A stretch of 64,000 nucleotides of DNA from Spiroplasma endosymbiont of Poecilobothrus nobilitatus. Its GTDB lineage: Bacteria > Bacillota_I > Bacilli_A > Mycoplasmatales > Mycoplasmataceae. The translations under genes were made by a program, and so were the position numbers. The DNA lies in contig NZ_OZ034915.1 in NCBI RefSeq assembly GCF_964030655.1, positions 248,001-312,000 on the forward strand. Reading direction: 5' to 3'. Of this stretch, positions 1 through 62,656 are shown piece after piece. Position 1 is the stretch's first letter, and the number at the start of each line of letters is the position of its first letter. The notes under the pieces were generated by a model that was not told where the DNA came from, did no database searches, and was given only the letters and a program-made list of their open reading frames with translations.

Positions 1-661
1 TAAAAACAATTAGAAAACACCAAATTAAAATTTAAAACGTTAAATGGCCAAATTCAAATCGATGAAACATTTATTAAAGAAATCCACAAAGGTAATTTTA
101 AAGATAAATTTGATAAAAGAAAAATTCATCTTGATTCAATTCATTTTCAACCAACACTAAATGTTGTATTCAAATGGCTGTTGATAGCAATAATAATATT
201 TATGTTAAATCAACCAACACAAAATGATTACAAAAACAGTGAATTATTGAAAATATTAATAAACAATTAATCAAAGAAAATTCAATTATTATTTCTGACA
301 TACAACCATTATATTTATTAGTAGCAAAACAAACAAATTCTATTTTATTAGCAACTAAAACTAGTACAAATCCTGATGCTAGTTATCGGAAGTTAAATAA
401 AATTAGTAAATTACAATCAAATCTTAAAGAATCCTTAATTCATTATCATGGCTTAGGTTTCACGAACATTCAAAATTATTTAAATCTCTGAAAATGAAAA
501 TACCAGCATAAAGGTTTAACACCAAACCAACAATCATCGGTATTATATTTTAACGTATAAAAAAGTTAAATAACAATATTAAAATTTTATATAATTTTCT
601 TTTAAAGTTATCATATTGATGATTTTTTTTATTTCATCAAGAGTTTTCTACAAAATTAAAA
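1..661 (+). mobile_element. IS-C copy C1 (IS1595/ISXO2-like), 3' part, decayed
   Basis: The window opens inside the transposase of an IS1595-like element whose full copies lie at 32.0, 42.0, 45.5 and 61.4 kb. Residues from the IQIDETF motif (first catalytic Asp) to the C terminus are recognisable up to the stop near 559. Compared with the intact copy, the third visible codon-equivalent Ser is TAA at position 1 and a 5-bp duplication near 138-145 shifts the frame, so the copy is dead. The right inverted repeat (ATCAAGAGTTTTCTAC, 636-651) is intact. A short hairpin with a T-run precedes it. Confidence 0.9.
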
Positions 662-31997: not shown

Positions 31998-32027
31998 ATT
32001 ATATACTAAAAATGAAAAAACAAGCAA
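31998..32027 (-). promoter_or_regulatory. Promoter of the tRNA operon
   Basis: On the minus strand TTGCTT (32022-32027), 18-bp spacer, TATAAT (31998-32003), 26 bp before tRNA-Asn. IS-C copy C2 begins at 32035, only 7 bp beyond the -35 box. Confidence 0.8.
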
Positions 32028-32034
32028 CTATTTT

Positions 32035-33177
32035 TTTTAATTTTGTAGAAAACTCTTGATGAAATAAAAAAAAACATCAATATGATAACTTTAAAAGAAA
32101 ATTATATAAACTTTTAATATTGTTATTTAACTTTTTTATACGTTAAAATATAATACCGATGATTGTTGGTTTAATGTTAAACCTTTATGCTGGTATTTTC
32201 ATTTTCAGAGATTTAAATAATTTTGAATGTTCGTGAAACCTAAGCCATGATAATGAATTAAGGATTCTTTAAGATTTGATTGTAATTTACTAATTTTATT
32301 TAACTTCCGATAACTAGCATCAGGATTTGTACTAGTTTTAGTTGCTAATAAAATAGAATTTGTTTGTTTTGATACTAATAAATATAATGGTTGCATGTCA
32401 GAAATAATAATTGAATTTTCTTTGATTAATTGTTTATTAATATTTTCAATAATTCACTGTTTTTGTAATCGTTTTGTGTTGGTTGATTTAACATAAATAT
32501 TATTATTGCTATCAACAGCCATTTGAACACAACATTTAGTGTTGGTTGAAAATGAATCAAGATGAATTTTTCTTTTATCAAATTTATCTTTAAAATTACC
32601 TTTGTAGATTTCTTTAATAAATGTTTCATCGATTTGAATTTGGCCATTTAACGTTTTAAATTTTAATTGGGTGTTTTCTAATTGTTTTGATTTCATTATT
32701 TTTTGGCGATTATATCAAGCGGTTTTCGGTGATGTTTTAATAAAGCGGGAAATCATTTTACTAGATTGGCCTAATAATGAAATTTGAATCAATAAATTTC
32801 ACTGTTCATATTTTAAATGACTTCAATACGTAAAATGATCACGAAAAGCATCAAAACTAGCACGAAATTTTTTGCATAAATATTTTTGTTTTCCTTCAGT
32901 ATTATGACCATTTTTAACACAATAAAAAGATTGACAATTAGGACATTTAATACCTTTATCCCTAAATTTTTGTTCAATTTCATTTAAGCGTTTTTGTTTT
33001 TTAATTAATTCTGCTTCTTTTTTGACTTTTTCATGAAATTCTAAAAATTGATCATCTGTTAAACTATTTATTAATTCTTCAATTATTTTTTTCTTTAATT
33101 ATTCACCTCTTATATTAAAAATATACCTAATTTTAGGTATATTTTATAAATATCAATAGTTTTCTACAAAATTAAAG
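32035..33177 (-). mobile_element. IS-C copy C2 (IS1595/ISXO2-like), start codon lost
   Basis: Inverted repeats TTTTAATTTTGTAGAAAACTC and the complement ...GAGTTTTCTACAAAATTAAAG bound the element. The transposase frame is 32136-33095, but the start is AAG where intact copies have ATG, and the second zinc-ribbon pair reads KFRASF instead of KCRASF. The left flank ACTATTTT (32027-32034) recurs not at the right end but at 33257, suggesting about 79 bp of later insertion or rearrangement. Confidence 0.9.
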
Positions 33178-41876: not shown

Positions 41877-42067
41877 GTTTTTTTAATTTTATAAAATAAA
41901 AAAATAAAATAGTTACTTAAATTTATTGTTTTTTTACAGAAAATAATGTCTTATAACAAAAAGTCTTTTTAATTTTGTAGAAAACTCTTGATGAAATAAA
42001 AAAAATCATCAATATGATAACTTTAAAAGAAAATTATATAAACTTTTAATATTGTTATTTAACTTTT

Positions 42068-43027
42068 TTATACGTTAAAATATAATACCGATGATTGTTG
42101 GTTTGGCGTTAAACCTTTATGCTGGTATTTTCATTTTCAGAGATTTAAATAATTTTGAATGTTCGTGAAACCTAAGCCATGATAATGAATTAAGGATTCT
42201 TTAAGATTTGATTGTAATTTACTAATTTTATTTAACTTCCGATAACTATCATCAGGATTTGTAATAGTTTTAGTTGCTAATAAAATAGAATTTGTTTGTT
42301 TTGATACTAATAAATATAATGGTTGCATGTCAGAAATAATAATTGAATTTTCTTTGATTAATTGTTTATTAATATTTTCAATAATTCACTGTTTTTGTAA
42401 TCGTTTTGTGTTGGTTGATTTAACATAAATATTATTATTGCTATCAACAGCCATTTGAATACAACATTTAGTGTTGGTTGAAAATGAATCAAGATGAATT
42501 TTTCTTTTATCAAATTTATCTTTAAAATTACCTTTGCGGATTTCTTTAATAAATGTTTCATCGATTTGAATTTGGCCATTTAACGTTTTAAATTTTAATT
42601 GGGTGTTTTCTAATTGTTTTGATTTCATTATTTTTTGGCGATTATATCAAGCGGTTTTCGGTGATGTTTTAATAAAGTGGGAAATCATTTTACTAGATTG
42701 GCCTAATAATGAAATTTGAATCAATAAATTTCACTGTTCATAATTTAAATGACTTCAATACGTAAAATGATCACGAAAAGCATCAAAACTAGCACGACAT
42801 TTTTTGCATAAATATTTTTGTTTTCCTTCAGGATTATGACCATTTTTAACACAATAAAAAGATTGACAATTAGGACATTTAATACCTTTATCCCTAAATT
42901 TTTGGTCAATTTCATTTAAGCATTTTTGTTTTTTAATTAATTCTGCTTCTTTTTTGACTTTTTCATGAAATTCTAAAAATTGATCATCTGTTAAACTATT
43001 TATTAATTCTTCAATTATTTTTTCCAT
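42068..43027 (-). CDS. IS-C transposase (IS1595/ISXO2-like), copy C3
   Basis: 319 residues, intact with TGA as Trp. N-terminal zinc ribbon CPNCQSFYCVKNGHNPEGKQ followed by LCKKCRASF; middle helix-turn-helix (SLLGQSSKMISHFIK); then the ISXO2-like DDE domain with QIDETFIKE (Asp), IIISDMQPLY (Asp) and a C-terminal FTNIQNYLNLWKWKY stretch carrying the third residue. GAGGTGAA precedes ATG 43027. The MITE lies 41 bp upstream of the start and may separate it from its promoter. Confidence 0.9.
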
Positions 43028-43067
43028 TAATTATTCACCTCTTATATTAAAAATATACCTAATTTTA

Positions 43068-43239
43068 GATAGTAAGAAAAAAGTTGAGGTTTGTAAGTAT
43101 AACAAACAAAATTAAATTTACTTATTAATTAAGTAATGCAAAAAAATGCTTAATATTAGGTTTTTAGTAAATTTATTTAATTTGTTTAGTTGTTTTTATT
43201 TATATTTTTTTGTAAAATCTCAACTTTTGTAATGCTATC
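43068..43239 (+). repeat. MITE-like repeat, copy 3, with 8-bp target duplication
   Basis: 172 bp, ends GATAGTAAG and TGCTATC as inverted repeats, flanked by TAATTTTA (43060-43067 and 43240-43247). The empty site is visible in the other IS-C copies (CCTAATTTTAGGTAT), which proves the boundaries. No ORF inside, so it must be mobilised by a transposase acting in trans. Confidence 0.95.
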
Positions 43240-43377
43240 TAATTTTAGGTATATTTTATAAATATCAAGAGTTTTCTACAAAATTAAAGAAAAGTCTAGT
43301 TAAAATGCAACAATTTTCCAGTTTTCGGTATATAATAAAAATAGTTTTAGTAGAAAGAGAAGTGATGATTTTTTATT

Positions 43378-45458: not shown

Positions 45459-45474
45459 AAATAGCACATAAATT

Positions 45475-46628
45475 TTTTAATTTTGTAGAAAACTCTTGAT
45501 TAAATAAAAAAAATCATCAATATGATAACTTTAAAAGAAAATTATATAAACTTTTAATATTGTTATTTAACTTTTTTATACGTTAAAATATAATACCGAT
45601 GATTGTTGGTTTGGCGTTAAACCTTTATGCTGGTATTTTCATTTTCAGAGATTTAAATAATTTTGAATGTTCGTGAAACCTAAGCCATGATAATGAATTA
45701 AGGATTCTTTAAGATTTGATTGTAATTTACTAATTTTATTTAACTTCCGATAACTAGCATCAGGATTTGTACTAGTTTTAGTTGCTAATAAAATAGAATT
45801 TGTTTGTTTTGCTACTAATAAATATAATGGTTGCATGTCAGAAATAATAATTGAATTTTCTTTGATTAATTGTTTATTAATATTTTCAATAATTCACTGT
45901 TTTTGTAATCGTTTTGTGTTGGTTGATTTAACATAAATATTATTATTGCTATCAACAGCCATTTGAATACAACATTTAGTGTTGGTTGAAAATGAATCAA
46001 GATGAATTTTTCTTTTATCAAATTTATCTTTAAAATTACCTTTGTGGATTTCTTTAATAAATGTTTCAACGATTTGAATTTGGCCATTTAACGTTTTAAA
46101 TTTTAATTTGGTGTTTTCTAATTGTTTTGATTTCATTATTTTTTGGCGATTATATCAAGCGGTTTTCGGTGATGTTTTAATAAAGTGGGAAATCATTTTA
46201 CTAGATTGGCCTAATAATGAAATTTGAATCAATAAATTTCACTGTTCATAATTTAAATGACTTCAATACGTAAAATGATCACGAAAAGCATTAAAACTAG
46301 CACGACATTTTTTGCATAAATATTTTTGTTTTCCTTCAGGATTATGACCATTTTTAACACAATAAAAAGATTGACAATTAGGACATTTAATACCTTTATC
46401 CCTAAATTTTTGATCAATTTCATTTAAGCGTTTTTGTTTTTTAATTAATTCTGCTTCTTTTTTGACTTTTTCATGAAATTCTAAAAATTGATCATCTGTT
46501 AAACTATTTATTAATTCTTCAATTATTTTTTCCATTAATTATTCACCTCTTATATTAAAAATATACCTAATTTTAGGTATATTTTATAAATATCAAGAGT
46601 TTTCTACAAAATTAAAGCAAAATTAAAG
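45475..46628 (-). mobile_element. IS-C copy C4, catalytic Asp lost
   Basis: Flanked by an exact 8-bp duplication CATAAATT (45467-45474 and 46629-46636). The right end carries a tandem 11-bp repeat CAAAATTAAAG. The transposase frame 45576-46535 is open, but the first DDE Asp is Val (IQIVETF instead of IQIDETF), so it should be inactive. Inserted directly upstream of crr. Confidence 0.95.
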
Positions 46629-46705
46629 CATAAATTTAATAATTTTATAGTATACTAAAGATAGATGACAAAGTTGTCTGCTTAATGAAAAAAGGAGAAG
46701 AAAAG

Positions 46706-61391: not shown

Positions 61392-61439
61392 TTTAATTAC
61401 ATTTAACAAAAAAAAGTAATAAAGAGTTATAAATAATTT

Positions 61440-62582
61440 CTTTAATTTTGTAGAAAACTCTTGATATTTATAAAATATACCTAAAATTAGGTATATTTTT
61501 AATATAAGAGGTGAATAATTAATGGAAAAAATAATTGAAGAATTAATAAATAGTTTAACAGATGATCAATTTTTAGAATTTCATGAAAAAGTAAAAAAAG
61601 AAGCAGAATTAATTAAAAAACAAAAACGCTTAAATGAAATTGATCAAAAATTTAGGGATAAAGGTATTAAATGTCCTAATTGTCAATCTTTTTATTGTGT
61701 TAAAAATGGTCATAATCCTGAAGGAAAACAAAAATATTTATGCAAAAAATGTCGTGCTAGTTTTGATGCTTTTCGTGATCATTTTACGTATTGAAGTCAT
61801 TTAAATTATGAACAGTGAAATTTATTGATTCAAATTTCATTATTAGGCCAATCTAGTAAAATGATTTCCCACTTTATTAAAACATCACCGAAAACCGCTT
61901 GATATAATAGCCGAAAAATAATGAAATCAAAACAATTAGAAAACACCCAATTAAAATTTAAAACGTTAAATGGCCAAATTCAAATCGATGAAACATTTAT
62001 TAAAGAAATCCACAAAGGTAATTTTAAAGATAAATTTGATAAAAGAAAAATTCATCTTGATTCATTTTCAACCAACACTAAATGTTGTGTTCAAATGGCT
62101 GTTGATAGCAATAATAATATTTATGTTAAATCAACCAACACAAAACGATTACAAAAACAGTGAATTATTGAAAATATTAATAAACAATTAATCAAAGAAA
62201 ATTCAATTATTATTTCTGACATGCAACCATTATATTTATTAGTAGCAAAACAAACAAATTCTATTTTATTAGCAACTAAAACTAGTACAAATCCTGATGC
62301 TAGTTATCGGAAGTTAAATAAAATTAGTAAATTACAATCAAATCTTAAAGAATCCTTAATTCATTATCATGGCTTAGGTTTCGCGAACATTCAAAATTAT
62401 TTAAATCTCTGAAAATGAAAATACCAGCATAAAGGTTTAACGCCAAACCAACAATCATCGGTATTATATTTTAACGTATAAAAAAGTTAAATAACAATAT
62501 TAAAAGTTTATATAATTTTCTTTTAAAGTTATCATATTGATGATTTTTTTTATTTCATCAAGAGTTTTCTACAAAATCAAAA
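61440..62582 (+). mobile_element. IS-C copy C5, complete
   Basis: 1143 bp with terminal repeats CTTTAATTTTGTAGAAAACTC and ...GAGTTTTCTACAAAATCAAAA, flanked by an exact 8-bp duplication AATAATTT (61432-61439, 62583-62590). A hairpin ATCAT/ATGAT followed by eight T near the 3' end (about 62530-62550) can terminate the transposase mRNA. Inserted just upstream of the cls promoter. Confidence 0.97.
61522..62481 (+). CDS. IS-C transposase (IS1595/ISXO2-like), copy C5
   Basis: 319 residues, intact: zinc ribbon CPNC...LCKKC, DDE-type domain with IQIDETF and IISDMQPLY. All catalytic and zinc positions match the consensus of the five copies, with one notable change (GFTNIQ to GFANIQ). GAGGTGAA precedes ATG 61522. 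Best candidate for an active IS-C. Confidence 0.93.
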
Positions 62583-62656
62583 AATAATTTTTATAACTCT
62601 TTTTAAATTATTGGTATAATAAAAGTAGTAATATTGTGCAATAAAGGGGAAACATA

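Follow-up and report, generated by a model that had tools for sequence, protein, structure and literature searches.

The window analysed here is a stretch of 64,000 nucleotides (positions 248001-312000) of the single-contig 1.43 Mb genome of the Spiroplasma endosymbiont of Poecilobothrus nobilitatus. Upstream of ptsI it carries, at 41967-43289 on the reverse strand, a copy of the insertion sequence IS-C, which is bounded by the inverted repeat ends TTTAATTTTGTAGAAAACTCTTGAT and by an exact 8-bp target-site duplication (TSD), AAAAGTCT, at 41959-41966 on the left and 43290-43297 on the right. The transposase gene of this copy (42068-43027, reverse strand) encodes 319 residues under genetic code 4 and matches PF12762 and PF03811. 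The copy is 1,323 bp long because it harbours a palindromic, MITE-like element of 170 bp (43069-43238), itself flanked by CTAATTTTAG repeats. About 12 near-complete copies of this small element and a few fragments occur in the 589 kb that we retrieved around IS-C copies, several of them within other IS-C copies. The -10 hexamer of ptsI, TATAAT, lies at 43331-43336 on the forward strand, at an offset of 34 bp (offsets are given throughout as the distance between the TSD edge and the hexamer's first base). It is present in all relatives aligned; these have one copy of the TSD sequence and an empty site, and both flanks are conserved in the closest of them.

Three further copies in the window also precede genes. 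Upstream of crr, IS-C occupies 45475-46628 on the reverse strand between TSDs CATAAATT at 45467-45474 and 46629-46636, and a -10-like hexamer, TATACT, follows at 46651-46656 on the forward strand (offset 15). The right end of this copy (46607-46628) reads CAAAATTAAAGCAAAATTAAAG: the final 11 bp of the tip, CAAAATTAAAG, are doubled while the TSD is otherwise perfect, which is perhaps a trace of the transposition mechanism. The copy upstream of cls (61440-62582, forward strand) lies between TSDs AATAATTT at 61432-61439 and 62583-62590, with TATAAT at 62615-62620 on the forward strand (offset 25). Nine IS-free relatives share a block that begins shortly past the insertion point, includes the -10 hexamer and runs to the cls start codon; IS-C thus sits at the upstream edge of a conserved promoter block, and the empty site is intact in these relatives. 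The copy upstream of the tRNA-Asn...Leu operon (32035-33177, reverse strand) has no clean TSD; its flank starts at 32027, and TATAAT lies at 31998-32003 on the reverse strand (offset 24). A fifth copy on the forward strand is cut by the left edge of the window (1-661), the whole element spanning about 247501-248661 of the genome. From the first four copies, the sequence-only reading had claimed that IS-C inserts beside the -35 region of host promoters, 14-33 bp upstream of a -10 box. The coordinates of these cases are real and the range is essentially right, with 34 bp for ptsI, but four cases alone decide nothing because TATAAT-like hexamers are common at about 25% G+C.

IS-C typically measures 1,143 bp, with terminal inverted repeats of about 25 bp and 8-bp TSDs. 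UGA codons within genes of the window, together with named relatives such as Spiroplasma phoeniceum, assign the genome to Spiroplasma. The predicted transposase of 319 residues scores 37.1 bits against the Pfam profile DDE_Tnp_IS1595 (PF12762, cut-off 27), and its N-terminal zinc ribbon of the InsA/IS1595 type exceeds the cut-off of PF03811 (Zn_ribbon_InsA) and scores 41.2 bits against NF050000 (cut-off 28). The NCBIfam equivalog domain NF033547 aligns over positions 2-214 of 215 and scores 68.5 bits, below a cut-off of 75 that is a naming threshold and not a biological feature. A profile search of the protein returned no match to Mutator-type (p-MULT) transposases and found the IS1595 domain instead. 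Judged by these profile matches, IS-C is a divergent member of the IS1595 family. A pattern search with the 25-bp inverted repeat located 118 forward and 104 reverse ends in the genome, so the copies number roughly 100 or more. About 22 of 88 paired IS-C copies have no matching TSDs, and likewise 43 of 55 IS3 copies, which suggests that copies often recombine with each other or that their sequences have decayed. At genome positions 245388-245481, 713373-713462 and 752180-752270, two IS-C right ends stand face to face in elements of about 90 bp, MITE-like derivatives that have no matching 8-bp duplications.

The ends of IS-C were paired in the 589 kb retrieved, and 66 empty sites, 65 of them unique, were rebuilt from TSD pairs with at most one mismatch (66 pairs). 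Gene calls came from a simple dicodon model that used genetic code 4, -10 motifs were scored by fixed consensus rules, and promoters were inferred by their -10 motif, with conservation as additional evidence for cls and ptsI. An exact TATAAT lies 25-27 bp beyond the TSD at 21 of the 65 sites, compared with 0.98 +/- 0.94 for intergenic positions matched for the target motif; A/T-matched positions give an equal value. If one mismatch is allowed, 40 of the 65 sites carry the hexamer at this distance versus 7.8-8.2 in the matched nulls. Offsets of 25, 26 and 27 bp account for 11, 7 and 3 exact hexamers, compared with about 0.5 at any other offset, and the peak is also visible in IS-C copies that have no matching TSDs. 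When two genomes were pooled (90 unique sites), 31 exact hexamers fell into the peak where 1.6 were expected (P = 1e-28). When all hexamers were scanned in all 3-bp offset windows across the 180 flanks of these sites (285,615 tests), TATAAT at 25-27 bp ranked first, with P of about 5e-29, and the entries next in rank were mostly overlaps of TATAAT. Within the wider range of 14-33 bp, 17 of 41 gene-facing flanks contain an exact TATAAT, compared with 4.6% of random intergenic positions (P = 1e-12).

The preference for insertion beside the -35 region is therefore real, beyond both random intergenic and A/T-matched sites, the comparison that the sequence-only reading had itself called for. Its suggestion that A/T tracts attract the element did not hold as a cause: with about 1 exact TATAAT in the matched nulls against 21 seen, A/T-richness or a local target motif alone is ruled out. 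Orientation varies as had been proposed; the left end of IS-C faces the promoter 16 times and the right end 15 times, which excludes a one-sided arrangement. After correction for background, about 58% of insertions obey the rule in either genome. Among the four original cases, cls (25 bp) and the tRNA operon (24 bp, within 1 bp of the peak) are valid examples of it, whereas crr (15 bp) and ptsI (34 bp), that is, both cases from the phosphotransferase system, are off peak. The further idea of the sequence-only reading, that IS-C could rewire PTS, lipid and tRNA expression, gains no support: both PTS cases deviate from the register, and insertions on the peak spare the -35 and -10 region. The crr and ptsI copies belong to the roughly 42% of insertions that deviate, and which may represent untargeted insertions, other promoter types or sites that have decayed since insertion. 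Exact TATAAT hexamers also occur 1-13 bp from the target in 14.6% of facing flanks versus 3.1% of random ones, possibly a second, rarer insertion position between the -35 and -10 elements.

A register of this kind might arise by selection instead of targeting, if IS-C inserted at random into A/T-rich intergenic DNA and copies that harm genes, promoters or ribosome-binding sites were lost. Gene starts 60-110 bp from the insertion are over-represented (37% versus 14%) and those closer than 30 bp are depleted, a spacing in keeping with targeting; the depletion near start codons is also in agreement with such a loss, as is the fact that those few IS3 copies which have TSDs and lie outside IS-C are likewise absent from long open reading frames. 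Purifying selection should, however, produce a wide scatter of sites upstream of the -35 region instead of a peak of 2-3 bp. Moreover, random positions in the same gaps yield only 3.6 +/- 1.7 exact hexamers at 14-33 bp compared with the 17 seen, and IS3 of the same genome, although under the same selection, shows no peak (0 exact TATAAT at 24-28 bp, 1.8 expected). We therefore regard loss of harmful copies as a very improbable source of the register. Neither the gap type (tandem or divergent) nor the relative place within tandem gaps, measured from the start side, differs from random, so that the effect is seen mainly in the register with the promoter.

Aligned on the -10 hexamer, the IS-C sites are enriched in the TGn extension, with G in 22 of 43, a feature shared by the generic promoters of the genome. 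The sites thus look like genuine promoters of the host. A consensus TTGACA was not found at the -35 position of IS-C sites, and the generic promoters of the genome show only a weak enrichment of T there; since the -35 hexamer is weak in this host, the anchor could be the -10 element, the -35 element or the polymerase alike. Judged by their translations, the genes downstream of on-peak sites include rpsL, rpsB, efp, tig, prfA, greA, fba, cls and others, and one tRNA-Ile/Ala operon also follows such a site. In a bacterial promoter TATAAT occupies -12 to -7, sigma region 4 binds the -35 element, and the proximal UP-element region lies just upstream of it. On this scale the duplicated target spans about -44 to -37, adjoining the -35 region on its upstream side, and on-peak insertions leave the -35 and -10 region intact. 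The cut site itself shows a weak, palindromic preference: A in the position preceding the 8-bp target and T in the position following it.

The same register recurs in other genomes. Spiroplasma phoeniceum PmM2021 (CP110830) holds 26 copies of an element whose transposase is 86% identical to that of IS-C; the duplications of 25 are perfect, and the interval of 24-28 bp contains 10 exact hexamers where 0.8 were expected. In a genome from another family of the same order (G349; transposase 80% identical), in which sites were assessed mainly by single edges as the TSD is kept at only 31 of them, exact hexamers number 5, 7 and 2 at offsets of 25, 26 and 27 bp, compared with 0.23 at each of the other offsets. 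Extended -10 motifs there amount to 16 against 1.6, and a few of these lie in related repeats. A more distant IS1595 relative (G342; 53% identical, 22 sites) shows no clear peak: 2 exact hexamers were found where 0.33 were expected (P = 0.04), 5 matches with one mismatch where 4.7 were expected, and no extended -10 motif. Its sites lie in long open reading frames in 73% of cases (random, 78%), compared with 21% for IS-C and 12% for S. phoeniceum. Close IS1595 relatives thus differ sharply in target choice. The G342 relative (loci L186 and L209-L237) seemingly favours targets like GAANNTTC, mostly inside open reading frames. Two further relatives, G187 and G439, contributed only 9 and 8 sites; element ends were set by the drop-off in conservation, as internal repeats confuse the detection of direct repeats. 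Targeting as a general property of IS1595 is not supported: G342 has no clear peak, and G187 and G439 offer few sites. With a peak at one narrow position in three genomes, none in IS3 and no clear one in G342, promoter targeting is a trait of a clade and not of IS1595 as a whole. The transposases of IS-C and the G342 relative diverge most in the N-terminal third, which contains the zinc ribbon, and this region may be a lead, though only a lead, to the seat of the difference.

The targets also allow a reading by positive selection: the IS tip, rich in A/T and situated at about -56 to -45, would serve as an UP element, and insertions would be kept where they increase expression of the downstream gene. 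The tip beside the target, ACAAAATTAAAG, is indeed A/T-rich, UP elements take up the same position as the tip, and rpsL, rpsB, efp, tig, fba and tRNA operons, as identified from translations, are among the targets. Yet selection would have to favour one and the same register in three genomes, at dozens of genes that have nothing in common, and no clear peak is seen for the 53% identical relative, whose tips are almost identical in sequence (TTTAATTTTGTAG). We give little credence to this explanation.

The main competitor to guidance by the polymerase is that the transposase reads promoter DNA directly. It would recognize a TGnTATAAT-like sequence, for instance via its N-terminal zinc ribbon, and cut about 25 bp upstream without RNA polymerase. 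The narrow register of 25-27 bp to the -10 hexamer and the enriched TGn extension are consistent with this possibility, and so is the divergence of the non-targeting relative in the zinc-ribbon third. Then again, the spread over 25, 26 and 27 bp resembles the usual variation of the spacer between -35 and -10 and fits an anchor at the -35 element or the polymerase at least equally well, and the hexamer lies 33-35 bp away from the IS tip, a long reach for one small protein. Direct reading is in our judgement unlikely, albeit the most serious alternative.

We propose that IS-C probably chooses its targets by promoter architecture, and we infer that its transposome is guided by promoter-bound RNA polymerase. 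Recognition of promoter-bound polymerase had been suggested by the sequence-only reading; recognition of the promoter or of the polymerase fits the observations, which do not choose between the two, and we consider guidance by the holoenzyme most likely. In this model the transposome would dock on promoter-bound RNA polymerase or prefer the DNA bent by it, with sigma region 4, the alpha-CTD or the bend they make as candidate contacts. This would place the 8-bp target, in about 58% of insertions, between about -44 and -37 in a sigmaA-type promoter, and the weak palindromic A/T preference would then fix the exact base of the cut. As both IS ends are used equally, the whole strand-transfer complex, and not one end, would be aligned with the promoter. 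Promoter targeting might offer IS-C safe and frequently occupied sites in a crowded genome. We are inclined to think that this IS1595 clade independently evolved polymerase-guided integration at about -44 to -37 and used it to reach about 100 copies per genome in Spiroplasma-type bacteria.

Together with its close non-targeting relative, IS-C would make up a small, tractable system for studying how a bacterial transposase recognizes promoters or polymerase, in which the determinant could be mapped because the 53% identical relative lacks the trait. The insertions also provide a natural promoter map in genetically hard organisms.

In its DDE_Tnp_IS1595 domain, inverted repeats of about 25 bp, 8-bp TSD and A/T-rich targets, IS-C conforms to the IS1595 family, whose members, including the mobilizable MTnSag1 and tISCpe8, are described as inserting with low specificity into A/T-rich regions (PMC5704250). 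That review reports no promoter register, whereas IS-C has one; a search of openly accessible literature likewise turned up no IS1595 element described as having a promoter register, and a prior description is possible. The closest parallels are TnGBS and ISLre2, whose insertions lie 15-17 bp ahead of the -35 region of sigmaA promoters; contact with the RNA polymerase initiation complex was proposed for them (Guerillot et al., PMC3942029). Like IS-C, they choose intergenic sites at a fixed short distance upstream of the -35 element of sigmaA promoters. They differ from it in their Mutator-type transposase as opposed to the IS1595 enzyme of IS-C, in the distance from the inverted-repeat tip to the -35 element (15-17 bp versus about 10-12 bp for IS-C if a 17-bp spacer is assumed) and in their single orientation, where IS-C uses both. 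The ISKra4 group (p-MULT 4) targets promoters as well and, like IS-C, can have the promoter on either side of the element when its inverted repeats are near-perfect (PMC3942029), but its transposase superfamily and its register are different. The Ty3 retrotransposon integrates by position next to Pol III promoters via the transcription machinery (cited in PMC3942029); being a eukaryotic retroelement, it offers an analogy only. Promoter-adjacent integration is well known in eukaryotic retroelements, and within the literature searched its bacterial cases are two Mutator-type lineages. Establishing a 2-3 bp register in a second transposase family would show that promoter targeting evolves repeatedly as a safe-site strategy.
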